This document shows positions 16,735 through 63,646 of a stretch of 64,000 bases of DNA, one piece after another. The DNA lies in contig OY282455.1 of assembly GCA_958296195.1 (NCBI GenBank), positions 2,542,001-2,606,000 on the forward strand, in the 5' to 3' direction. This stretch comes from an uncultured Pseudomonadales bacterium (GTDB lineage Bacteria; Pseudomonadota; Gammaproteobacteria; Pseudomonadales; Azotimanducaceae). The position numbers were made by a program, and so were the translations under genes. Numbering within the stretch: the stretch's first letter is position 1; each line of letters starts with the position of its first letter. The notes beneath the pieces are model-generated. The model saw only the letters and a program-made list of their open reading frames with translations, searched no databases and was not told the origin of the DNA.

Positions 16735-16819
16735 GGAGAGGTGTCCGAGCGGTCGAAGGAGCACGCCTGGAAAGTGTGTATGCGGCAACGCATCGAGGGT
16801 TCGAATCCCTCCCTCTCCG
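16735..16819 (+). tRNA. tRNA-Ser (anticodon GGA)
   Basis: The acceptor GGAGAGG (16735-16741) pairs with CCTCTCC (16812-16818). The anticodon loop is CTGGAAA with anticodon GGA. There is a long variable arm, as in all tRNA-Ser, and a GAGGG/CCCTC T-stem around TTCGAAT. Discriminator is G; CCA is not fully encoded. It reads UCC/UCU serine codons. The last nine bases CTCTCCGCC (16813-16821) recur three more times downstream as junctions of inserted modules. Confidence 0.97.
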
Positions 16820-16821
16820 CC
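16813..16821 (+). repeat. Attachment-type repeat copy 1 (3' end of tRNA-Ser)
   Basis: CTCTCCGCC at the 3' end of the tRNA. Exact copies occur at 18881, 25015 and 27012, each at a module junction. The left end of module 1 follows after CCCAT. Confidence 0.75.
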
Positions 16822-16826
16822 CCCAT

Positions 16827-18878
16827 AGCCGTTCGGGATTTTTCGGCATTTTTGCCCGTTTTCCGCCTAGTCCGAAAACCCGAATTTCCTTCAAAATCAA
16901 TCCCTTGTCACATTGGAGCCTTGGGGGTTGGAATGCCGGCTTTCCACCTAGGGGCTGCTTCGCATGGCCGATTTGGGCGCTGGATGCGCGTTCCGGCGGG
17001 GACACTCCGCCGCTGGCTCCGGCGCATTTGCCGGAGTTCGGCCCGTCAGTCAGTTGGCTGATGTGCCGCAATCCGACGCACGGTCGATGCAGGGCTCCCT
17101 TGGACAGCACTGCCCATCGTGGAGCCGTCCGTCAGCGGCGTCATGGTGGGGAGCCCTAGCGGACCATGCGCCCTTTGTTGCTGGTGTTCAGTAAAGCGGG
17201 AATTGCGAACGGCCGGAGCGTTTACGGCATTTTGAGGCCGTCTGCGTCTTGGTCCACCTTGCCGTTGGCGTCCACGGTGCTTTGCGGGGCGGCCTGCTCC
17301 CTGTTCGCTTCGGCGCGGCGTTCGGGCGGCAGAAGTTTTGGGTGTACGTCTGGCCACTGGGCGCACACTTCATGTGAAACTGCTTGGGACAGGGTGGGGA
17401 TGCCGCAGGACCAAGGGCGCACTGCATAGGGGGCCATCGGGTCCATGCTTTGCTCGTCCGCCCACAGGAAGCCAGAGTACTTCAGTCCATCGACGAGTTC
17501 CGGGACGGTTTTTTGCGAGTGCGCACTAGCCCTTTCACAAGCCGCCTTGATGTCACTGTTCGTCAGGGCTGCGAACCCTCCCTGCGCCTGCGCAGTCTCC
17601 GTGACGGCGCAAGCCGCCATCAGCAGGTCGCCCCTCTCCAAGTCGCGCAGGCGGTCGATGTAGTAGCCGGATTTGGAGCGGGCGAAATCGGGGATTGCTT
17701 GGCGCACTGCGTCTGCCGTGATGGGTTTTCGGGTTGGGTGTCCGGCGTCCCATAGGGATCGTCCCATCATCTGCAGGAAGTACGGGTATCCGTCGGTCTC
17801 CTTCATAATGAGGTCGGCGGCCTCGTCCGCGATGCTCGTCCGCATGGGCTTGGCAATGGCGTCCAGGCTGTCTGCACGGGGCAGCAGGCCCAAGGGTCGC
17901 CTTCGGTTGTCCAGCCTGGACCAGAACGTGGCGTTCATGTCACTGAGGGCGTCCTGCAGGTTGGGGGTTCCGGCGAGGATCAGTTGGAGGCTGGCGCCTC
18001 TGGATCGGGCACTTTGCTCGGCGTTCAGAAGTTCCCTGCCGGTGTCAAGGGGCAGGGTGTGCGCCTCGTCGATGAGGATCAGGCAGGGCTTCCTGCCCAG
18101 TGTGCCGAGGGCGCGGGTGAGGGATGGCTCCAGGTGCTCCCTATGGGTTTCGATGGAGCCTTCGGTTGCGGCGAATCCGGGTACGCCGGCTGTGCCGCCG
18201 ACCAGTCGGGTTTCACTGGTTGAGATGCTTTTGGATTGGTTCGCCAGCGCGGTCAGGTGCTTGGCGAGCTTCTCCGGCGTTTTAAGCTCCGATATCTCCA
18301 GCTTGACCACTTGCGCGCCCTGCACCGCAGCCGACGAGGCCATGTGCCGCATCAGTGCCGTCTTGCCGTTGCCGCGTGGCCCGAAAAGCACCATGGGGCC
18401 GTTGGCGGCATTGTTCGGATCGGCCATGCAGTCCAGGCAGCCCTGAAAAACATTCAGATCCTCCTTGCGCCCAGCCAAGTACGGCGGCGCCGCGCCGGAG
18501 GTGGGGTGGAAGGGGTTCGTTTTTTTAGGATGCTTGCGCTTGTCCATGCTGCTGTGCATCAAACCAGTCGTTTCCAAGTCGGCATTATGCGTTGTGAATT
18601 GGCCTGCAGCAACCCGGACCGACGGCTGTCGTTGTCGGCAGTGGCGCTTGCGTCCCCATCTGTTTCGGGGCGTCTTTGCCTTGGGCCGCATCGGCATCTA
18701 CGGACCGATCGGGCGGCTTTCGGGACGATGCCGCTTTAGGCGGCGGCAGGTTCGGCCGCTCTGGTGCCGCTATTCGTGATGGCACGGAGACATGGTGAAT
18801 TTGCGCCAATTTAATTTTCAGGCAAGCCGTTGATTTTATTTAGGAAAAACGGAAAATGCCGAAAAATTGCGAACGGCT
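16827..18878. mobile_element. Island module 1: 2.05-kb element with terminal inverted repeats, AAA ATPase cargo
   Basis: The left end begins AGCCGTTCGGGATTTTT and the right end, read inverted, begins AGCCGTTCGCAATTTTT; the first 26 bases of the two ends match at 24 positions. CTCTCCGCC lies just outside each end. The outer 65 bp on the left match module 3 at 61 positions, and the outer 87 bp on the right (18794-18880) match at 78 positions without gaps. The cargo differs entirely. The 330 bp between the left end and the ATPase stop hold no gene. They include another copy of the right-end core, AATTGCGAACGGCC, at 17201-17214. No recombinase is encoded. Confidence 0.65.
17222..18547 (-). CDS. 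AAA ATPase (Orc1/Cdc6-like), island cargo
   Basis: The 441-residue protein has a Walker A motif GPRGNGKT at residues 56-63 and Walker B LILIDEAH at 156-163. An N-terminal block NPFHPTSGAAPPYLAGR precedes it, as in a family of stand-alone ATPases with a GR-x-E entry. AGTPNLQDAL and FWSRLDNRRRP give sensor 1 and arginine-finger-like positions. The C-terminal third may be a winged helix. It is the only gene of module 1. It could be a defence ATPase, a regulator of transposition (TnsC/TniB-like role), or neither; no partner gene is adjacent. The frame continues upstream to 18697, but ATG 18547 starts the conserved part. Confidence 0.7.
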   Translation of the reverse strand: MDKRKHPKKTNPFHPTSGAAPPYLAGRKEDLNVFQGCLDCMADPNNAANGPMVLFGPRGNGKTALMRHMASSAAVQGAQVVKLEISELKTPEKLAKHLTALANQSKSISTSETRLVGGTAGVPGFAATEGSIETHREHLEPSLTRALGTLGRKPCLILIDEAHTLPLDTGRELLNAEQSARSRGASLQLILAGTPNLQDALSDMNATFWSRLDNRRRPLGLLPRADSLDAIAKPMRTSIADEAADLIMKETDGYPYFLQMMGRSLWDAGHPTRKPITADAVRQAIPDFARSKSGYYIDRLRDLERGDLLMAACAVTETAQAQGGFAALTNSDIKAACERASAHSQKTVPELVDGLKYSGFLWADEQSMDPMAPYAVRPWSCGIPTLSQAVSHEVCAQWPDVHPKLLPPERRAEANREQAAPQSTVDANGKVDQDADGLKMP

Positions 18879-18880
18879 AG

Positions 18881-18889
18881 CTCTCCGCC
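18881..18889 (+). repeat. Attachment-type repeat copy 2
   Basis: CTCTCCGCC between the right end of module 1 (CGAACGGCTAG) and the left end of module 2 (ATAGCCGTTCG). The junction forms a larger imperfect palindrome because the two ends are inverted copies. Confidence 0.7.
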
Positions 18890-19163
18890 ATAGCCGTTCG
18901 GGATTTTGGAGCATATTTCATGTAAACCATTGATTTCAATGTTAAAAGACCTGCCTATAAAGTGGCACTTTTTTTCGTTTTTTTCACGCGTCCATGCGCA
19001 GCCGAAACATCGGCGCTTGGTCGCCGCCGAATCGCCCGTTTGGCGAGGCGCGCAGCCCCCCGTTGGGGCGGTGCGCCCCGCCGTCAGTTGTTGGTGACTT
19101 AAGTCCAGCGTCCAGTCGGCGCAATGCACCCAACGACGAGAGCCATCAACTGAACCCCGTCGT

Positions 19164-19769
19164 TTGCTCCGCGTGTGTTCGCTCGCTGGCGCTCGCCGCC
19201 GAATTTGGCCCTCCCGCATCGGGTCGCCATGCTGTCCGCCAGTGCCGGACGAGCGGAGGGACCGCAGCGAAGTGGCGCGGCTGATGATGAAGGCCAACCT
19301 GTCCACCGCCCAGCGGCATGGCAAGTGGCGGGACGAATGGTTCGAGCACCCCCTGCCCACCATGAACGAGCCGCACAAGGCCATGTGCTGGCTCACGCCC
19401 CATGCGTCCGTGGACGAGGACCGCAAGGCGGACATGCTGCTCAATGCCGGCTTGGCCCGCGTCGACAACGTCTTCCAGATGATCCGCCGGCTGTTCAACG
19501 CCTTCGAGCGCCCGGTCGGAACTTCAAGCGGCCACAACGCCGTCTGGCACGGCTACGCCCCCTACAACCCCGCCATGGTGCAGAAGTACCTGACCATCTT
19601 CCGGACCGTCAACAACTGGGTGCATGTCAGCGAGAAGGACGGCAAAACTCCCGCCATGCGGCTGGGGTTCGCCCGCAAGCCCCTTGGGTATGAGGACATT
19701 CTGTGGGCTGGGCAACGGGTGCCGAGGCCGAAGCGGAGCAGGCGGAGGGGGATGAGGATGGCGGTGTGA
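19164..19769 (+). pseudogene. C-terminal fragment of an insertion-element transposase
   Basis: From about codon 40 the frame encodes a coherent protein with WFEHPLPTMNEPHKAMCWL, GTSSGHNAVWHGYAPYNP and MVQKYLTIFRTVNN, ending with a basic tail RPKRSRRRG. This resembles the C-terminal half of transposase-like insertion element proteins. The first 35 codons look non-coding and no catalytic N-terminal half is found upstream, so the gene appears truncated. The exact IS family was not recognised. Confidence 0.45.
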
Positions 19770-20215
19770 GCGCGACAGGCTGGCCTTCACTGCAGATGCG
19801 GGATGTCCTCGCGTCTGTTGGGCGACTAGTGAGGCGGTTCGGTGCTCGCCCCAGGAGCTAACTTAAATCTCTAGGGACAGCGACCTCTTGCGAAGGCAAC
19901 GATCTGGGTGGGTGGACGATGTCGGCTCGGCGCGGCGCGCCCTCATCCACTCAGGCTTCGTCTGGGGCGGGTTCGATGGGATGGGCGCCGATGGCTATGG
20001 CCTCGGCATCCCCTGCCTCGCCAAACATGTCGTGCGCAAAGCGATCAAAAACATGCCACACTTGACCGAACGCCTAGGCGGGCACGCCGTCATGGACGAC
20101 AGTGGCGCGCGGCGCAGCCATGACGGAAACTTGAGTTATAATCCTTCGGGCAGCAGCCGCAAGCATGCATCCGACCCGACGAAGCGGCAGCCGGAGCAAC
20201 CCGAGGAGACGAATC
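19770..20215. other. Stretch without a confident gene
   Basis: A frame from 19888 gives HSGFVWGGFDGMGADGYG and similar text but resembles no family and runs into the poly-C tract. It may be a decayed gene. The last bases hold GAGGAGA, a good ribosome-binding site for the ATG at 20216. Confidence 0.3.
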
Positions 20216-20408
<193 letters not shown>

Positions 20409-20455
20409 CGAAAGAGTCTCCATAGTCCTTCGTCGTATCCCCTCAAGGGTTTCCC

Positions 20456-21401
20456 TTGCCTCTTGACGCAGCTCCTCCATGCGGGTGCGCCGCAAAGGAG
20501 ATCTGCTTCGTGACCGCCACCACGGAGCGCTTCGTGCCGGGCACGCTCGTCGCCCTCGGCTCTTTCCTGAAGCACCACCCCGGCTTCGGCGGCGACCTCG
20601 TCGTCGTCCACGACGCGCTGCCCGAAGCCCACCGCCGACATCTCTCGCAGGCCTGCCCCCGCGTGCGCTTCGAGTCCGTCTCCCCCGAATTGCACGACCG
20701 GCTGGCCGCCTTGGGCGCCGCGCGCCCGGAACTCGCCCCCAGGCTGGGGCAGCTCTACTCCCTCGAAGCCTTCCGGCTGCGCGGCTACCGCAAGGTGCTG
20801 TTCTACGACAGCGACGTCCTGTTCCAGGCCCCCGTCGCCGACCTGTTCGACTCGCCCGCAGCGTTGCTGTGCTGCGGCGACGACGTGTTCCTGCGCGGCG
20901 GGCGCCGCGACGCCGCCACCTTCGCGCCCCTGCCTCACGCACGACCGCCCGGCGCGGCAGGCGTGCTCGAACGCACCTTCGGCGCCGGCTTCATGCTCAT
21001 CGACGCAGGGGCTCGTGGAGGAAGGCTGCTACACGGAGCTCCTGGACCTGGTGGCGCCGCAGTCCTGGTCCGGCGCCGCCACCACCCATACGGACCAGCT
21101 CATCCTGAACCGCTGCTTCGCCGGGCGCCAGACGCTGGTGGGCTGGACCTACGACTTCGTGGTCCCGATGGCCGAGGCGATTCGTGCGCGAGAGGGCGTC
21201 GACGCCGGAAACGCCAGGACGCTGCATTTCGCCGGCCCCGTCAAGCCTTGGATGCCGGAAGCCATGCTCCACTGGACGCGGGGCGACCCCAAACGCAAGC
21301 CCGTGGATGCCTTCAGGCTCTGGTATGACGCCTATGTGGGCCGCTTGGCGGACGCTCACGTGCGCAGCGCCGGGGACAGACTCGCCGGGAACAGGGAATG
21401 A
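20456..21401 (+). pseudogene. GT8-like glycosyltransferase, one-base frameshift
   Basis: The first part encodes EICFVTATTERFVPGTLV, QLYSLEAFRLRGYRKVLFYDSDVLFQ and TFGAGFMLIDAG, which fit a nucleotide-sugar glycosyltransferase with a D-x-D metal motif (YDSDVLF). The frame is then lost at a GGGG run (21008-21011). Removing one G joins it to LVEEGCYTELLDLV and HTDQLILNRCF, running to a TGA at 21399-21401. The intact protein would be about 315 residues. The start may be TTG 20456 with AAGGG upstream, or GTG 20510 with AAAGGAG. It overlaps the sulfotransferase by ATGA, so the two are an operon. It probably transfers a sugar to a glycan or peptide. Confidence 0.7.
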
Positions 21402-22292
21402 ACTACGTCCCCGGCGCCGGCCGCGACCTCGCGACCGTGATCGGGACGCATCTGTTCGTCGTCTGTCCGAACAACAGCGGCTCGTCGTTTCTCACCGCCG
21501 CGCTGGGGTCCTGCCGCGCGACGTGGCGCCTGCCGCAGGAAGGCCAGATGATACGTGGCTTCGCCGGGCCGGTGACCTATCGAGCCCTGCGCGGCCCAGG
21601 GGGCGAGCAATGGTTCCCCGGCCTGCTGTGGGCGTCGGAGCGGAGCTGGCTCGACCTCTTCACGCAGCCGAGCAGCTACGACTGGCCGCTCACACCGCAA
21701 GGCGTGGTACTTCCACGCCCGCGCCCATGCCCCGGACGCCTCGGTGTTCGTCACCAAGTCCACCCAGCACCTGCTGCACGCGGAGCAACTGGTCCGGCAT
21801 TTCCGCAACGCCCGGTTCCTGTTCATGGTGCGCAACCCCTACGCCGTCTGCGAAGGCATCTGCCGGCGCTACCGGACCCGGCTCCCGCCGCGTTACCTGC
21901 GCCAGTTCGAGACGCCGGGCAGGAGCCTGCCGGCGGCGGCCTCGACCCACGTCGCCAACTGCCTCGCCTGGCAGCGCCGCAACGTCGAAACGTATCGGGA
22001 CCGGGGCGTCTTCTTCACCTACGAGACCATGTGCGCGGACCCCGCGGGGGCCGCACGGACGATCCGAACCCTCGTCCCGGAACTGGACGACCTGGTCCTG
22101 CGCCGTCGCCTCAAGGTGAAGGGGTACGACGAAATGCTGACCGACATGAACGAACGCCAGATCACCCGTCTGGACGCCGCGCAGATCGCGGCGTTCAACC
22201 GCGTGTTCCGGGAGCATCGGGACACCCTCGGCTACTTCGGCTACGAGCTCATGGACTGTCCGGACACGTTCGAGCGGCGGCAGGCGATATGA
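21398..22292 (+). pseudogene. Sulfotransferase, one-base frameshift
   Basis: The N-terminal frame gives LFVVCPNNSGSSFLTAALG, the PAPS 5'-phosphosulfate loop of sulfotransferases. Near 21700 the frame shifts: after CAA, deleting one G joins it to AWYFHARAHAPDASVFVTKS and then RFLFMVRNPYAVCEGICRRY, the 3'-phosphate-binding R-N-P-Y-x-x-x-E block. The intact enzyme would be about 297 residues. Sulfotransferases move sulfate from PAPS to a hydroxyl of a sugar, lipid or tyrosine. It overlaps the glycosyltransferase by four bases. Whether the shift is real or a sequencing error needs read evidence. Confidence 0.7.
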
Positions 22293-22313
22293 CGACAGGC
22301 GCCTCGCGGCGAT

Positions 22314-22475
22314 CGGCCCGCCGCGCCACTCGAAATGAGAAAAAAGATCACGTGCGAGGAATATGACCAGCGGGGCGCCAAACAGGGCGCCGTCCGGCCC
22401 GTTGCGCCACCCGAAACGAGAGAAGAGATTATGCGCAAGGAATATGATCTGCGCGGGGTCAAACGGGGGGCCGTC
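22314..22475 (+). repeat. Two tandem 81-bp repeats
   Basis: Units 22314-22394 and 22395-22475 both start CGGCCCG and end GGCGCCGTC or GGGGCCGTC and align without gaps. Each encodes a Y-D-x-R-G-x-K-x-G-A-V motif. Confidence 0.7.
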
Positions 22476-22532
22476 GTCAAGGAGACCGGAAAGCAGCGGA
22501 TTACGATCTCAAGTTGCGGGATTCGGAATGAC
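22335..22532 (+). pseudogene. Duplicated N-terminal fragment of an antitoxin-like protein
   Basis: The frame starts MRKKITCEEYDQRGAKQGAV and then, after 32 residues, MRKEYDLRGVKRGAVV followed by GKQRITIS. This resembles the start of small ribbon-helix-helix antitoxin-like proteins (K-E-Y-D-F-S-K-G-K-R-G, then K-x-R-I-T-I). The DNA-binding helix part is missing, and the frame then runs antisense through the next gene. It is probably a remnant; the coding status is uncertain. Confidence 0.3.
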
Positions 22533-22555
22533 GAAAAATCGCTTCATCACTTATA

Positions 22556-23170
22556 TCACTCGAATTCGAGCCGCATGGTGAACACATCCAACTGGAGGCT
22601 TCGTGCAAAGAAAATCTTCACTTTGCCATCGAATGCCGTCATGAGAGTTTCTGCGCAACACCCAAGTTGCTGTGCGGTGATTTCAGCGGCGGCCCCGGCC
22701 GGCAAGGTCAGGGTGACGTCGCCCTCCGGCGGAGGTGCGCCGGCGTCGTCCACGCCGCTGACGGTGATCGTTGCGTCCGCGTCGGCGGGATTGACGAGCC
22801 GGAGCCTGCTCACTTGCCGGTTGTTGCTGGCGGGGTTGAAGATCACCACTTCGCGCCGTCCGTTGGACTGCGGCGCCAAGGCGTTCATGCTGGTGAGCAG
22901 GCCGTCGGCCGTGCGCACGTAGGCGAGCGCTTGGATGTCGATGTCAGCGGCGAGATCCAGACGCCAGTCCCCTTCACCGGTGCCCACGCCGCCGGGCAGC
23001 CCCTTGGAGGCGTTGCCCATCTCCAAGTTGTTGGAGTTGAAGTCAACGGCTTGTCCGGCGTCAAGCGACAGCGTGACGGGGCCGCGGCGCCGGCCGGCGT
23101 CGTCAATGGCGTGGATGGCCACTGCGCCGCTTCCGTAGCTGCAGTTGATGATGCGGGCGTAGCCAACTCA
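22556..23170 (-). pseudogene. Fragment of a secreted beta-domain repeat protein
   Basis: The minus frame encodes one and a half copies of a repeat: INCSYGSGAVAIHAIDDAG, VTLSLDAGQAVDFNSNNLE, then VIFNPASNNRQVSRLRLVNP and GDVTLTLPAGAAAEITAQQLG. This pattern of tandem extracellular beta domains (F-N-P-x-S-N-x-x-Q-V-S-R-L-R) is coherent, but there is no start or signal peptide, and the last 25 residues lose the pattern. It is the leftover of a longer exported protein. Confidence 0.5.
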
Positions 23171-23886
23171 CCGGCGCATGACGGGCCAGCGGTCTGGCGC
23201 CATGCCGGATGGACAGTTCCCCATTCAGAGGCCGCTTCACCTGCACCCGCGCCTTCCGGTGGGTCGGACAATGGCGCCGCGCCGGGATGTGCGGCGCCAT
23301 GCCCTCAAAGCGCACTCAGCTGCGTCGTTCCCCACCACGCGGTCGTGCGTCCCGCACAGCACCCCGTCCAGCACCGGGGGATCGACCAAGGGCACGAAGG
23401 CAGTCTCCTCGTCCAGACGCGCCTTGCGGGTCAGCCGGCGATTATGCCGGGGCGGGTGGGTCTTGCGCAGCTGTCGAACTGCCTGAAATGGAGCGGTTTT
23501 TTTACCGTGCATCCGGGACATGAGCCATGCCAAGCGCAGAACAAAACTCGAATGGGGCGGCCCCATGAGCAATCCCCTGCGGCTGGAAGGCACCACGGGA
23601 CTGGAGCATGGTCATCCGGAAAGGAGAGCACTCGTTCGCCTACTCCTTCTCAGCGGAAAACGGCTCCGCTCCTGTCGCCCGACAACATCCCAGTCGAGGT
23701 GACCGCTGAGACCGTGGGCGTGAAGGTGCAGTGCCCCTTCGCCAACTATGGCGACTGCCTAAAAACGCTTGGAGATCGCGTTGCGGAGTTCCTGTAGGTG
23801 CATTGGGGTGGGTGCCGAACCCGTCCCCCTCCCCCCGACATTAGTGCTACGATGGTTACGCGAAACAACAAGGTTAGCAGCGCGTC
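23171..23886. other. Stretch without a confident gene
   Basis: Several short frames exist on both strands but none resembles a family. A plus-strand piece ending at 23797 (VKVQCPFANYGDCLKTLGDRVAEFL) has protein-like composition and may be the end of a decayed gene. The last 40 bases are upstream of mntA. Confidence 0.3.
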
Positions 23887-24174
23887 ATGGACCCCTTAAT
23901 CGCCAAGCACCGCGCCGCCATCAAGGCTATCGCAGCGGAAAATGGCCTGTGCAACGTCAGGCTGTTCGGCTCGCGCGCCCGAGGCGACTACCGACGGGAC
24001 AGCGACGTGGATCTGCTCGTGGACAGGCTGCCGCCCCGAGGCCACCTGCTGAACCTCTGCAACATGACTAGGCGGGTGCGCCAATTGACCGGGCGAAAGG
24101 TGGACGTTTCTACGGAGGGCATGCTGTACGACACCATCCGGGATGAAGTGCTAAGCGAAGCGGTGCCATTGTGA
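23887..24174 (+). CDS. mntA: MntA-type minimal nucleotidyltransferase antitoxin
   Basis: The 95-residue protein carries the GSX10DXD nucleotidyltransferase signature (GSRARGDYRRDSDVD), typical of MNT-domain antitoxins. Known MntA proteins add AMP residues to the HEPN toxin HepT and so silence it. The downstream hepT starts at GTG 24171, overlapping the stop by four bases, the usual translational coupling. All catalytic acids are present. Confidence 0.88.
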   Translation: MDPLIAKHRAAIKAIAAENGLCNVRLFGSRARGDYRRDSDVDLLVDRLPPRGHLLNLCNMTRRVRQLTGRKVDVSTEGMLYDTIRDEVLSEAVPL

Positions 24175-24725
24175 ATCCTCTGATCAAGGAACTGCGCAAG
24201 CGCAGTCTGGATCGGGAGAGGCTGCAAGTCATCTTGGATGAGGTGCGGGGCGATGAGGGGTTGCGCGATGTGCTTGAGTTAGGCAAGGCCGCCTGCATGA
24301 AGCATGAGGGCAGAAATCACATTGCGCGCTCCGCCATGCACAGTCTGGCGACAATAGGCTTGGCGCTGTCCGATCTTTCACTTTCCATGCAAAAAGCCTT
24401 TCCCGCTCTGGACTGGGAGGACCTAAAGGAACTCTGCAACTACATTGCACATGATTACATCAAGCGTGAAATGCCTGTGGTTTGGGACGCGGTGGTCGCA
24501 TACACTCCCATCTTGGATGACGCAGTAACGCGCATGGTCGCATGGGACAGCAACCACCCAGCGCCGGCCCCGAAAGATGCTGAGGCTTTAGGTTCCATGA
24601 ATATCCAGGACTACGTCAAAAAGGCAATTGAGACAAGGCAACAGGAGAAGTCTGGAGCGATGGACAGTCGTGAGCCGGGCTACAATCCGCGCAAACGCAA
24701 AGGGCATGGAGACCCTCGCCCCTAG
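24171..24725 (+). CDS. hepT: HepT-like HEPN toxin, catalytic Arg replaced by Cys
   Basis: The 184-residue protein has the HEPN helical layout: a basic N-terminus, then MHSLATIGLALSDLSL, and ELCNYIAHDYIKREMPVVWDAV. In HepT toxins the last block normally reads R-N-x-x-x-H-x-Y, with the Arg and His forming the RNase site and the Tyr being AMPylated. Here it reads C-N-Y-I-A-H-D-Y, so His and Tyr remain but Arg is Cys. The toxin may be inactive. The C-terminal 40 residues (KSGAMDSREPGYNP onward) extend beyond the family. It is coupled to mntA. Confidence 0.82.
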   Translation: MNPLIKELRKRSLDRERLQVILDEVRGDEGLRDVLELGKAACMKHEGRNHIARSAMHSLATIGLALSDLSLSMQKAFPALDWEDLKELCNYIAHDYIKREMPVVWDAVVAYTPILDDAVTRMVAWDSNHPAPAPKDAEALGSMNIQDYVKKAIETRQQEKSGAMDSREPGYNPRKRKGHGDPRP

Positions 24726-25014
24726 TCCACCTCTCCCCACCGAATGCAACTCTGTCCCCCGCGCATGGGCGACAGCCCAAAAGGGTGCGCCTACTAGTTG
24801 TCCTCGCTGTCCGAGGCGGTGCGGCCCATGGCGCAGCCACGCGCCCGCCCGCTGGACCTGCAAGGCCGCACCTCGGTCCGCAGCCGCCATCGGCACACTA
24901 GGAATTTCGCGCATTACTCCTAAAGTGCCAAAGATTGCCATTTTATTGAAGGATGAAAATACTTATAAATCAATGAATTGATTGGTAGTTGATCCCAAAA
25001 TATGGAACGGCTAG
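24726..25014. other. Right flank of module 2, no gene
   Basis: No recognisable coding frame. The final 90 bases become AT-rich and end with GGAACGGCTAG, the module right end. Confidence 0.4.
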
Positions 25015-25023
25015 CTCTCCGCC
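25015..25023 (+). repeat. Attachment-type repeat copy 3
   Basis: CTCTCCGCC between the right end of module 2 and the left end of module 3, which starts after CCAT. Confidence 0.7.
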
Positions 25024-25027
25024 CCAT

Positions 25028-26990
25028 AGCCGTTCGCAATTTTTCGGCATTTTTGCCCGTTTCCCGCCTAGTCCGAAAATCCGAATTTCCTTAGCTCGCG
25101 GAACAGCATCGGCAGTTCAAAGGCCACGCCGCAGGTTCAGTCGTAGTGCTGCAGCGGGGCGTCATTGAACCCGCTCAACGGACTAGGCCAGTCTCATCAT
25201 CAGGTGGCGCAACGTCGGTTTCGGTTTGGGCCGGCCGGACTCTGGCCTGCGATGCTGCGAAAGCAATGGCGGAATCCGCTTGTCGCGCCATAGCGTCGAT
25301 ATGCTGGTCCAGCGTAGTTCGCACATTGTCCCGCACTGGGTAATGCAGTCTATTGTCTCGCCAAGCCGCCTGCACCTTCATCGAGGTCTCTGTCGCGACA
25401 TGCCAAAAGTCGTCTGGCTCCATGGGCAAATGGCGCGCCATGGATTGAAATCTTTTAGGGTTCATGCCGAACTCCTTGCCGCCGCCTAATTTCAGAGCCA
25501 GCGCCTCGTTTGGGATGTACGACAGGGTGCAGACGAGATCGTAGTTGGGGGACAGTCTGGACGGCGTGTTCTGTGGGTGGAGCACCGTCCAGTTCTTGAG
25601 GTGGGCGTCGCCGTTGCCGATCAGGATGTGGAGAGCCAGGCGCTTCGCCACTTCCAGCGCCCCATTCTCGCCTGAGAATTCATGCACCGCCCGGCAAACG
25701 CTCCCAAAGCTTTGTCCGATGTACTTGTCATCGGGCCATTGCCTAAAGACTTGGGCGAAGTCCTCCATGTGAATGCGCCCACCGCCAACCCGGTCGAAGC
25801 GCCGCAGGATCAAGCCGTTGGCATCCTCGCTGATGCCAGGGGCGTACTGCAGCAGCCTGGACCCGGGCAGACGCTCAATGGCGTTCAGACGCACCAGTTC
25901 GGCGTCAGGCACCTCAAAGCCCGCCGCCTTCGCCAAGTGAAGCATGCTCCACTCGTTTTCCGGTACACCGTCCCACTCTGCGAAGGGCAACTTGAGTATG
26001 AACTCACCGCCGTCGCCATGCACGGGCAGCGTCATGCGCCCTGATGCATCCCGTTTCAGGGAGTGCTTAAGTTGTACGCCCGACAAGGAGAAGCGAATGT
26101 TGGGTGGCGGGCCTTCAAACGGATCGTCCTCCTCATCCGCATCTTTCACGCACCATGCGGGCGGGTTCCACCCGTCGTCCAAGTCGGCCCAAGCATCCTC
26201 TCCAGTAGAGGGAACCCACGTTGGTGTCACCTGCACGGCGCCTGGCAGGTCTGCGCCGAGGGCGCGCAGAAGGAGAAACTCGTCTTGCGATTTGAGTCCG
26301 TTTTGATGCGACAAGTATCGGCGCAGGGCGCCTTCCGGCAGCATGTTGGAGAAGAACGGGTCGATGCGCGGGCCTGGGTAGGCGCGCACATGCGTCATGG
26401 GTTCGCCTTGCGCGTCAAGCAAGCCTAAACTCAGCAGGGGCCTGCGTGGGCTCGCTAAATAGGTTGGCGAAAACTCAAACTTGGACCCTCTGCCTTGCGC
26501 CTTGCGCCTCAACAAACCGACTAAGCTGCGGTTCAGAAATATCTTCAGGCATGCGTCCTTCCCCTTCATCACCCGATGCTCCACATGGGGTTGAGCACAG
26601 CAGGCCAATCGTGCTGAAATTGAAAACTCGGTTCGGAAATTGCCATGATGCAGGCCCAAATAGCTTTTAAGGCACAGCCGTCAAACTTGCCGTGCAGAAT
26701 ACGCCGATGCGCCTGTGCAGTCAAACCGTGGTCGACCCTGTGCGCCGCACTCAGTGGGCTTTAGGGAATAGGGGCGTCGCGGCCTTGGCTTTGCTCCACC
26801 ACCCCTCCCGGGGGACCTGTTCGCCGCATCTGGTGAATATGGTGTCAGCGCCAACCATTTTGAAGGCTGTCGGGCATTGATCACGGAATCGGGCACAAAA
26901 AATACGGTGAATCTGCGCCAGTTTAATTTTCAGGCAAGCTATTAATCTTATTTAGGAAAAAAGAAAAATGACGAAAAATTGCGAACGGCT
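25028..26990. mobile_element. Island module 3: 1.96-kb element with terminal inverted repeats, HipA cargo
   Basis: The left end begins AGCCGTTCGCAATTTTTC and the right end, inverted, begins identically; 26 of the first 27 bases match. Outer sequences are near-copies of those of module 1 (left 61/65, right 78/87). The only gene is a HipA kinase on the minus strand. The 24 bp after the right end contain a further inverted end remnant (GGAACGGCC) before the last CTCTCCGCC. Confidence 0.65.
25175..26569 (-). CDS. hipA: HipA-family serine/threonine kinase toxin
   Basis: The 464-residue protein has the HipA organisation: an N-terminal subdomain 1 (FLNRSLVGLL, SLGLLD), FSLSGVQLKHSL as the kinase entry, GEFILKLP with the ATP-binding Lys, and the catalytic block LIGNGDAHLKNWTV followed by the NYDLVCTL metal motif. 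HipA kinases phosphorylate tRNA synthetases or other targets and cause growth arrest. ATG 26569 starts the family-like region. No HipB-type helix-turn-helix gene is adjacent, so this is an orphan. It is the sole cargo of module 3. Confidence 0.88.
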   Translation of the reverse strand: MKGKDACLKIFLNRSLVGLLRRKAQGRGSKFEFSPTYLASPRRPLLSLGLLDAQGEPMTHVRAYPGPRIDPFFSNMLPEGALRRYLSHQNGLKSQDEFLLLRALGADLPGAVQVTPTWVPSTGEDAWADLDDGWNPPAWCVKDADEEDDPFEGPPPNIRFSLSGVQLKHSLKRDASGRMTLPVHGDGGEFILKLPFAEWDGVPENEWSMLHLAKAAGFEVPDAELVRLNAIERLPGSRLLQYAPGISEDANGLILRRFDRVGGGRIHMEDFAQVFRQWPDDKYIGQSFGSVCRAVHEFSGENGALEVAKRLALHILIGNGDAHLKNWTVLHPQNTPSRLSPNYDLVCTLSYIPNEALALKLGGGKEFGMNPKRFQSMARHLPMEPDDFWHVATETSMKVQAAWRDNRLHYPVRDNVRTTLDQHIDAMARQADSAIAFAASQARVRPAQTETDVAPPDDETGLVR

Positions 26991-27064
26991 AGCTAAATTC
27001 GGAACGGCCAGCTCTCCGCCCCCCCAATCAATACGGCAGCAGGCCCGCGGGTTCCATTCGCCAC
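26570..27064. other. Upstream flank of hipA and module 3 right end
   Basis: No antitoxin or other gene is recognisable on either strand. The conserved 87-bp right end lies at 26906-26992, and the last repeat copy at 27012-27020. About 100 bp upstream of hipA could hold its promoter. Confidence 0.4.
27012..27020 (+). repeat. Attachment-type repeat copy 4, outer boundary of the island
   Basis: CTCTCCGCC followed by CCCCCAATCAAT. It is the last exact copy of the tRNA-Ser 3' end and probably marks the chromosomal junction. Confidence 0.65.
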
Positions 27065-46222: not shown

Positions 46223-46674
46223 CTACCGGTTGATCAAGAGGCTGCGGAATTCGGCGAAGGTGCCGCCATAGATATAGACCGCGTGGTTGGGCGAGCGAGC
46301 GTCGGTGCGCACGAGCAGGCGTATGGCCGTGCCTTCAGCCAAGTTGGTGCCGCACTCGGTGGATGATTTTTTTTTTGCGGGGGGGGGGGGGGGGGGGGGG
46401 GCTTGGCAGCCAACCATTGCTGCACAGTGTTGTTTCTGATCGCCCGTTGAAAACCGACAGCACGGCCGGGCCGAAATTCGTCCCAGGTTGCGCCAGTGCA
46501 GTCAACATGGCGAATGTTGTTGACCTCTGTGAGCACTACAGGGCCGAAAAGCAGTATTCCGGTTGTGGCGCCCTTGGCCAAGGCGGCAACAAGCAGGGCC
46601 GCCAACGCCAAGGCAACCAATAGGGTGCGGGCAAACCATCTTGCCGCGGTGTTGAGAAAAATGGTGAAGAGCAT
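46223..46674 (-). CDS. Small membrane-anchored protein interrupted by a homopolymer tract, likely phase-variable
   Basis: ATG 46674 has AAAGGA six bases upstream. The first 90 codons give a transmembrane segment (LLVALALAALLVAALA) and a soluble part ending VQQWLAAK. The frame then meets 23 C on the coding strand. At this length it continues in a nonsensical frame. With 24 or 21 C it would continue as AKKKSSTECGTNLAEGTAIR and end YIYGGTFAEFRSLLINR at the stop at 46223. Thus both halves are protein-like but out of frame by one base. The function is unknown. Slippage or a read-length error would explain it. Confidence 0.55.
46379..46401 (+). repeat. Poly-G tract, 23 bp (poly-C on the coding strand), next to a 10-bp poly-T
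   Basis: Uninterrupted run of 23 G; ten T lie at 46367-46376. It divides a small gene into two frames. Confidence 0.95.
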
Positions 46675-62337: not shown

Positions 62338-63646
62338 GGGCTATCCCCGCGTGTGCGGGGGAACCGCAGGCTGCATCGCCGGCCACGCCGTGCTGGAGGG
62401 TCTATCCCCGCGTGTGCGGGGGAACCGGGCGTTGGCTCGGATGCTCCCGACGAACCTCGGGTCTATCCCCGCGTGTGCGGGGGAACCCATGTGGCGGTTG
62501 TTCCGCGTCGGGGAGGGGTGGGTCTATCCCCGCGTGTGCGGGGGAACCGGATCGGCGCAAGTCGCTCGGTACAGCGATCAGGGTCTATCCCCGCGTGTGC
62601 GGGGGAACCGGGTTCTCTCCGCCCGGGTGGCTGATGGGCTGGGGTCTATCCCCGCGTGTGCGGGGGAACCAGTTCCGCAGCAGGTCCTCGCCGTCCGTGT
62701 TGGGGTCTATCCCCGCGTGTGCGGGGGAACCGTGCCCATCCAGACGTTGGTGGCGCCCATGTCGGGTCTATCCCCGCGTGTGCGGGGGAACCACCGGCGT
62801 GGTCGGCGTTCCGGTAAAGGCCGACGGTCTATCCCCGCGTGTGCGGGGGAACCGCGCTCGGGGCGGACGGCAACCTGCACCTCTACGGTCTATCCCCGCG
62901 TGTGCGGGGGAACCAGCCCCGCGTAGGCGCGGGTCCGGGGGTCGTAGGGTCTATCCCCGCGTGTGCGGGGGAACCATCAGGCCCGGCTCGACGATCGCCG
63001 CGGCGTGGGGTCTATCCCCGCGTGTGCGGGGGAACCTAGTACGTCATGCCAAGGCCCTGCCCCATCTCGGGTCTATCCCCGCGTGTGCGGGGGAACCGCC
63101 CGAAGTGGCCGATCAACGCAATTCGAGGCGGGTCTATCCCCGCGTGTGCGGGGGAACCCGTAGCCAGCGGAAACTTGCGCGGTAGTCACGGGGTCTATCC
63201 CCGCGTGTGCGGGGGAACCATGAAGATGTTGCCGGTCTTGGCTTCCGCCTCGGGTCTATCCCCGCGTGTGCGGGGGAACCCCCGGGATGGCCTGTTCCTG
63301 CAGGGTGCGCAGGGGTCTATCCCCGCGTGTGCGGGGGAACCTGGGCGTCTCCGCCTTGCCAGCGGTGGACCAAGGGTCTATCCCCGCGTGTGCGGGGGAA
63401 CCTGGATTGGGCCGAATTTGGCCGCCCAAGGAAGGGGTCTATCCCCGCGTGTGCGGGGGAACCGGCGAAACCGGAAGGCCGATTGCGCTGGACTTGGGTC
63501 TATCCCCGCGTGTGCGGGGGAACCGCAGCGCTGCCGCTCCTGCTGCACGAGTACGAGGGTCTATCCCCGCGTGTGCGGGGGAACCCTTCCTGAAAACCTC
63601 TCTAGCCATCCTGTGGCCGGTCTATCCCCGCGTGTGCGGGGGAACC
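62338..63646 (-). CRISPR. Type I-E CRISPR array, 22 repeats and 21 spacers
   Basis: Repeats of 28 bp, on the plus strand beginning GGTCTATCCCCGCG and ending TGTGCGGGGGAACC, recur every 61 bp exactly, leaving 33-bp spacers. The repeat is of the type I-E kind. The array is next to cas2 and the leader side is at the right end, so it is transcribed leftward (minus strand). The leftmost, oldest repeat has one change (GGG for GGT). All other repeats appear identical. The base just left of each repeat is G in 18 of 21 spacers and C in three. Confidence 0.98.

Follow-up and report, generated by a model that had tools for sequence, protein, structure and literature searches.

Tandem cargo modules behind tRNA-Ser genes of an uncultured Pseudomonadales bacterium as probable non-autonomous derivatives of a zinc-ribbon transposase lineage

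Introduction

The transposase family of MIC231, a mobile insertion cassette (MIC) of Bacillus cereus, is of the IS231/IS4 type, and that of the elements called TIMEs is Tn3. In the portions of the literature cited here, MICs (PMC6542083) and the Tn3-derived TIMEs (PMC4133298) are cargo units that have transposon tips but no transposase gene of their own and are taken to be moved in trans; TIMEs also build mosaic units. Here, we describe modules of this kind at a tRNA-Ser gene of an uncultured Pseudomonadales bacterium (Azotimanducaceae). The window, by which we mean the whole 64-kb stretch that was analyzed, spans positions 2542001-2606000 of its single-contig genome (G000; 4.31 Mb), and another genome of the same genus (G001) was used for comparison. 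Three modules (W1 to W3) stand in tandem behind tRNA-Ser(GGA), and judging from sequence comparison, we consider them, with a probability of roughly 0.87, to be non-autonomous cargo derivatives of a transposon lineage with zinc-ribbon transposases, putatively of the DDE type. Their cargo lies between transposon inverted repeats, and they hold only a stub of one transposase-like gene (Lp) and a fragment of another (Rp), with no complete transposase gene. As a kind, this is a MIC system.

Like MIC231 and the TIMEs as the cited accounts present them, the window modules are transposase-less cargo between tips, and W2 is a mosaic. They differ in transposase family, and neither the homing to tRNA-Ser genes nor the head-to-tail stacks of several tip classes are seen in MICs or TIMEs in those accounts. 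Tn7 has TGT...ACA ends and 5-bp duplications, whereas the window lineage has neither and makes duplications of 9 bp. Integron cassettes and pdif (Xer) modules are small cargo units, often with toxin-antitoxin or defense genes, that are stacked head to tail; unlike these, the window modules have no integrase match, and their varying 9-bp duplications point to a transposase. There was no Pfam match to TnsB, TnsC or TniQ in the Lp, Rp and partner genes described below, no search aimed at these families having been made.

Among tRNA-associated transposons, the cited descriptions of Tn7-like elements, including CRISPR-associated transposons (CASTs), portray multi-gene elements with a tRNA homing site and defense cargo (PMC10293859, PMC8649781). 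One of them, CyCAST, is described as inserting 30-33 nt downstream of the tRNA end (PMC10293859); the window modules insert at the tRNA end itself. Dada elements, in the part of their description cited, are eukaryotic DDE transposons whose insertion sites are tRNA and snRNA genes, with 6-7 bp duplications (PMC3706591). The window lineage shares with them insertion at tRNA genes, but it is bacterial, duplicates 9 bp, belongs to another superfamily and carries stacked cargo cassettes. In open-access papers, we found no description of the Rp family or of tRNA-Ser cassette stacks, nor of tRNA-Ser homing, multi-class stacking or a layout with two transposase-like genes.

Results

The array behind tRNA-Ser(GGA)

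The sequences contain paired tips, 9-bp duplications and stubs of transposase-like genes; different sets of modules occur at the same tRNA-Ser gene, and the same module occurs at different tRNA-Ser genes. The features of the window array are as follows, with tip classes A to D as given in the next section.

16735..16821, plus strand: tRNA-Ser(GGA), the target gene (ARAGORN); its left flank matches a tRNA-Ser locus of G001
16813..16821, plus strand: copy 1 of the 9-bp target duplication, within the tRNA 3' end
16825..18880, plus strand: module W1, class A tips, 2.06 kb
16913..17078, plus strand: Lp stub in W1, starting 87 bp inside the left tip (tblastn with Lp)
17222..18697, minus strand: AAA ATPase of 491 aa, W1 cargo (AAA_22 1.5e-14, AAA_16 1.5e-08)
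18881..18889, plus strand: copy 2 of the target duplication
18890..25014, plus strand: module W2, a mosaic with a class C left tip and a class D right tip
19245..19766, plus strand: C-terminal fragment of Rp in W2 (residues 481-654), 78% identical to Rp
19844..22379, no strand assigned: W2 block with 99.5% identity to G000 419851-422376, which lies close to another tip-bounded module
23472..24942, no strand assigned: part of W2 common to a class D module of another G001 tRNA-Ser array (94.8% over 1,486 bp)
23887..24174, plus strand: nucleotidyltransferase (NTP_transf_2 1.6e-09; PADLOC PDC-S09 3.6e-27)
24171..24725, plus strand: HepT-like protein (PF01934 E 0.0034, 17.5 bits, below the Pfam cut-off of 23.5)
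25015..25023, plus strand: copy 3 of the target duplication
25026..26992, plus strand: module W3, class A tips, 1.97 kb
25175..26659, minus strand: HipA-type kinase, W3 cargo (HipA_C 1.1e-39, Couple_hipA 2.3e-19)
26993..27011, plus strand: remnant of a further right tip, 19 bp with one mismatch (GGAACGGCCAG)
27012..27020, plus strand: copy 4 of the target duplication, right edge of the array

A preliminary description of this DNA had noted four exact copies of the 9-mer CTCTCCGCC (at 16813, 18881, 25015 and 27012), bordered by inverted tips of the TAGCCGTTC type, and intervals of 2.05, 6.1 and 1.96 kb carrying an AAA ATPase, mixed cargo and HipA. All of this was recovered, the cargo as Pfam matches in W1, W2 and W3. 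The copy at 27012 has no tip after it. The modules are likewise tRNA-Ser-associated, tandem and integrase-less, with terminal inverted repeats, as had been proposed. Inverted copies of a single terminus do bound the first and third intervals; the middle one has a class C end on the left and a class D end on the right.

GAACGGCTAG directly precedes the copies at 18881 and 25015. After the copy at 16813 come CCC and then ATAGCCGTTCG, after that at 25015 CC and then ATAGCCGTTCG, and at 18881 ATAGCCGTTCG follows with no extra base. The one-mismatch tip before the copy at 27012 ends 19 bp past a perfect tip. Elsewhere in the window, CTCTCCGCC occurs three more times (twice on the plus strand and once on the minus strand), never adjoining a tip. 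The extra C residues after copy 1 suggest that W1 inserted first and that the other modules entered later at the distal copy, although the same pattern could result from slippage in the C tract. The start of W2 (18891-19259) shares 96% identity with the sequence that lies behind a class C tip at G000 2653091. We rejected the idea that tip orientation toward the tRNA is always fixed, because W2 starts with a class C end, which elsewhere adjoins the start region of Rp. The nucleotidyltransferase of W2 is a candidate partner in a toxin-antitoxin or defense pair.

W2 also contains a run of 33 C residues (20229-20261), and a second homopolymer run, of 23 bases, lies at 46379-46401 of the window; a phase-variable tract or an assembly effect is possible for these runs. 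At ~62590-62700, repeats of the form ATCCCCGCGTGTGCGGGGGAACC lie beside the CTCTCCGCC copy at 62615 and look CRISPR-like by eye.

Tips and 9-bp duplications

A genome-wide search with AGCCGTTCNNNATTTT, allowing up to one mismatch, gave 55 matches in G000 and 3 for the reversed control, so the tips are far above chance level in this genome. Of 145 genomes searched, six contained exact TAGCCGTTCNNNATTTT: G000 had 39 copies, G001 had 30, and G004, G015, G068 and G126 had one each; the remaining 139 had none. Viral contigs had no match to two junction patterns.

Within the fetched regions of G000 and G001, we counted 91 tip ends (52 and 39, respectively) that fall into four classes, two ends first typed as A by a loose pattern having been assigned to class B by eye. 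Every end starts with TAGCCGTTC, and the consensus continues inward with GCAATTTTTCGGCATTTT in class A, CGAATTTTTAGG in class B, GGGATTTTGGGGCATATTT in class C and CATATTTTGGGATCA in class D. A left end stands directly after a right end at 19 of the 50 right ends.

To compare the 9-mers at left and right ends, we fixed the frame one base outside TAGCC and GGCTA; in some cases, the base between the 9-mer and TAGCC may belong to the element or to the target. We scored pairs of ends no more than 32 kb apart whose flanks are not tRNA-type (n = 20), with 525 cross-locus pairs as the control. Exact 9-bp repeats were found in 5 of the 20 pairs and in none of the control pairs, and all five differ from one another: CTCAGCGAG, CGTAATTTC, CACTCCGGG and CCCTCTGAT in G000 and ATCTCGTCA in G001. 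The tRNA-type repeats are CTCTCCGCC, CCCTCCGCC and, behind a tRNA-Asp of G001, CGCTCCGCC. Because the repeat differs from site to site and is identical on both sides of one element, the tips are better read as probable transposon ends and the 9-mers as probable target-site duplications than as the att sites first proposed.

The att interpretation would make the modules substrates of a tyrosine recombinase, with CTCTCCGCC as the crossover core, the inverted tips as arms (attP- or dif-like) and an integrase acting from elsewhere. The arms are indeed symmetric around a core equal to the tRNA 3' end, tRNA 3' ends are the classic target of tyrosine recombinases, and G000 encodes two full-length phage-integrase-family proteins and two pieces. 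Yet strand exchange between unequal cores would not give repeats that vary between sites and agree across one element, and no single core is present at all integration sites, where five 9-mers occur besides the tRNA-type ones. The four PF00589 matches in G000 (two full-length proteins elsewhere and two pieces beside another tRNA-Ser) all lie outside the window modules. The element in which both ends are complete carries zinc-ribbon transposase-like genes instead, and relatives of Rp sit between similar tips. We therefore regard tyrosine recombination as highly improbable. The two integrase pieces (L036, G000 414244-417755) lie downstream of the tRNA-Ser(GCT) at 413329 and are probably the remains of an ordinary tRNA island.

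A 30.8-kb element with two transposase-like genes

The fullest element found is bounded by the pair of ends with CTCAGCGAG and spans 30.8 kb (G000 925748-956591). On either side of it lie the halves of a major facilitator superfamily (MFS) transporter gene, which map to adjoining parts of a G003 homologue (~30% identical). The MFS gene had no match in G001, G002 or G004 to G008, so that no empty orthologous site was seen. Lp (636 aa) starts 87 bp inside the left tip and Rp (654 aa) 108 bp inside the right tip; the two genes read toward each other, and their zinc-ribbon transposase-like products are 24% identical. The preliminary description had proposed looking for an intact member with a recombinase, and this element is one in kind, with transposase-like genes in place of an integrase-type recombinase.

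Behind Lp, two overlapping open frames (G000 927682-929456) match parts of one long frame in G002 (C148, 8505-10619; L275) at ~30% identity; we call this the partner gene, which stands behind Lp in both species. In the partner protein, the conserved stretch D..EVSA resembles PD-(D/E)xK nucleases when judged by eye; the protein had no Pfam or solved-structure match. Lp, Rp and the partner gene all lie near the ends of the element. A restriction-modification gene, an SRAP gene, further tips and a second tRNA-Ser(GCT) also lie within the element, which may therefore be composite and have moved as a single unit. The second tRNA-Ser(GCT) lies between proteins of repeated short units, with a weak match to a phage-integrase N-terminal domain (L039, G000 944567-946848). 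Lp had matches in 2 of the 369 genomes of a class-wide sample, one of them G000, and neither Lp nor the partner protein had a match on plasmids.

Probable derivation of the modules and their cargo

Exactly as in the 30.8-kb element, Lp stubs start 87 bp inside the left tip; this is the case in W1, in five further G000 modules (166567, 2885160, 2887649, 2890797 and 4114770) and in two of G001 (692769 and 1755157). The 108-bp spacing of the Rp start, as in the 30.8-kb element, recurs at G001 3350054. Because they keep stubs and fragments of Lp and Rp, we read the window modules as probable non-autonomous cargo derivatives of an element of the 30.8-kb type.

In the part of the module genes that was scanned, cargo comprised AAA ATPases, HipA, nucleotidyltransferase with HepT-like protein, an AbiEii-like protein, a type III restriction-modification pair, a methylase, leucine-rich repeat proteins, RNase H and proteins without a match. 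ATPases of this broad type are the main or only gene in W1 and in modules at 2890797, 2140862 and 166567 of G000 and 695460, 1762490, 1769879 and 3354711 of G001, as would be expected if the AAA ATPase had an IstB- or TnsC-like role as the core protein of mobility and the other cargo were secondary. Its homologues are, on the other hand, common in the genus outside modules: paired tips were found at 2 of 30 loci, both known modules, and a third locus (L122) has a class C left tip ahead of it, for which no partner tip was found. Many modules also have no ATPase, and the module ATPase families are in several cases only ~25-30% identical to each other. A role for the ATPase as the mover is thus very unlikely, and we rejected it on the ground that its homologues lie mostly outside tip-bounded modules.

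One module (423730-430052 of G000) contains a large serine recombinase (694 aa; 425791-427875) beside a truncated IS481-like integrase-core protein (L004, 424820-427875). We set this recombinase aside as a mover; it was seen in one module only, no genome-wide search having been made.

Turnover and target preference

A comparison of the kind that the preliminary description had suggested, with the close relative G001, showed gains and losses and not the same full arrangement. The left flank of the window tRNA-Ser is 94% identical over 3,683 bp to that of a G001 tRNA-Ser that carries class B, A, C and B modules and further ones. tRNA-Ser(CGA) has no tip in G000 and five left tips in G001, and along the 1,797 bp leading to the tRNA end, the flanks share 78% identity. 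At the right edges of the arrays, G000 and G001 mostly had no match to each other. A module at tRNA-Ser(TGA) (G000 2890788-2892884) shares 90% identity with W1 along all of W1. At a non-tRNA site of G001, a two-module unit has the outer repeat ATCTCGTCA and the inner junction CTCTCCGCC, which looks like a departure from a tRNA-Ser array.

Alternatively, the tips could be old intergenic repeats, or the arrays could have arisen once and then changed only by homologous recombination or deletion between tips, with no recent transposition. Long shared tips permit such recombination, W2 combines parts of class C with parts of class D, the right tip at 26993-27011 is truncated, and G001 is without a full-length Rp. 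Fresh 9-bp duplications at unrelated sites nevertheless need insertion, as do the split MFS gene and the empty orthologous tRNA-Ser. We consider this explanation unlikely, and recombination may reshuffle arrays after insertion by transposition.

G000 has 46 tRNA matches, and the 12 of at least 82 positions were typed as 5 Ser, 5 Leu, 1 Tyr and 1 uncalled by ARAGORN. A left tip lies no more than 5 nt from the 3' end at three of the five tRNA-Ser genes (GGA, TGA and the second GCT); GCT at 413329 and CGA have none. All four tRNA-Ser genes in the fetched regions of G001 are occupied, a biased count since these regions were picked for tips. Junctions of tRNA-Ser followed by a tip were found in four of nine genomes of the genus (G000, G001, G002 and G007). 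Beyond these four, one-mismatch junction matches were at about control level, with one exact match (G589) outside the count.

The wider Rp family

A tblastn search of plasmids with Rp gave 121 records, 97 of them covering at least 80% of Rp, that include 85 from Enterococcus, 9 from Staphylococcus and 5 from Vibrio. The annotation at 20 listed records was hypothetical protein in 17, insertion element protein in 1 and nothing in 2. A scan of species genomes gave 77 Rp loci, mostly Pseudomonadota by title. An Rp relative annotated as an insertion element protein lies with dfrG between a 49-nt inverted repeat pair (86%) on the Enterococcus faecalis plasmid pEF9594.2 (L155, 3371-6646), with no 9-bp duplication visible at the edges. 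The Rp family may already be named.

Tips were surveyed at 79 Rp loci, 75 of the 77 genome loci (L242 and L243 were dropped as short) and 4 plasmid loci. Both tips with full flanks were found at 19 of the 79, many of the tips reading C(T/A)AGCCGTT or CTACCCGT; among the loci surveyed, L170 and L172 look like one element, and tip assignment is doubtful at L216, L223, L232 and L235. An exact 9-bp duplication was seen at 8 of the 19 and in none of 342 cross pairs; the best of up to six tip placements was kept per locus, which favors matches, and cross pairs were treated alike. The parent-type 9-bp duplication is thus shared by modules, the 30.8-kb element and members of the wider Rp family.

Six of the eight exactly duplicated targets of the wider family form better hairpins than their shuffled versions (z = −2.2 to −5.5), and four hairpin targets are directly followed by at least four T residues, like intrinsic terminators. 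At L152, L192, L193, L195, L210 and L222, the elements lie over the loop of terminator-like hairpins, unlike the targets of the window lineage, none of the six of which folded as a hairpin better than shuffled versions (z = −1.6 to 1.3).

Across an alignment of 31 Rp relatives, D225 and D511 never vary and D383 and E525 hardly do (L185 numbering), a pattern that fits a DDE-type enzyme. The IS1/IS1595 zinc domain model NF050000 weakly matches all 31 (E up to 0.1), and the IS1 family model transpos_IS1 weakly matches 30 of them (member 1 scores 28 bits against a cut-off of 100). Other zinc-domain models also match, IS256-type in 29 of 31 and IS1249 in 28 of 31. A profile search of solved structures with the 31 relatives gave nothing but zinc fingers and one other zinc protein among the matches listed (60 of 107). 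IS1 makes duplications of ~9 bp, and its transposase is far shorter than ~600 aa. Rp relatives thus have a weak match to the IS1/IS1595 zinc domain model and, at some loci, 9-bp duplications like those of IS1; they differ from IS1 in their length of ~600 aa, the score of member 1 lies below the cut-off, and the Rp of G000 itself matches none of these models.

Discussion

Several observations weigh against deriving the modules from a transposon lineage of this kind. Because G000 has one full-length Rp and G001 has none, the arrays may no longer be active. For tip classes B, C and D, the analysis turned up no complete element. Pfam gave no transposase domain or core in Rp, and insertion sequence models, including IS1-type ones, did not match the G000 Rp (E up to 1). 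The tip-to-tip gap in arrays varies, being 11 bp at 14, 12 bp at 3 and 13 bp at 2 of the 19 junctions, and exact repeats are missing from 15 of the 20 non-tRNA pairs, many of these having been judged not to be true partners.

If the modules do derive from such a lineage, a transposase acting in trans (Rp, perhaps with Lp and the partner protein) would cut the tRNA-Ser 3' end with a stagger of 9 bp and join the tips there. The duplication would rebuild the tRNA 3' end and re-create the target, which would let more modules stack head to tail, and any outer pair of tips could carry everything between them to a new place. More tentatively, and at rather less than even odds, a hairpin-targeting insertion-sequence transposase lineage may have turned into a tRNA-Ser-homing platform in this genus. 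Such a platform would have two related transposases and a partner, with four tip classes used by stacking defense and toxin-antitoxin cassettes, integron-like in form and run by a DDE-type enzyme.

Islands at tRNA genes are usually credited to integrases; here, the stacks appear to be built by a transposase-type element whose Rp family is widespread and, among the records listed, mostly annotated as hypothetical. If this is true, the lineage would offer a natural test of how a transposase switches targets from a hairpin loop to a tRNA 3' end. It would also represent a new tRNA-homing enzyme set and would explain some defense-gene islands that lack an integrase.

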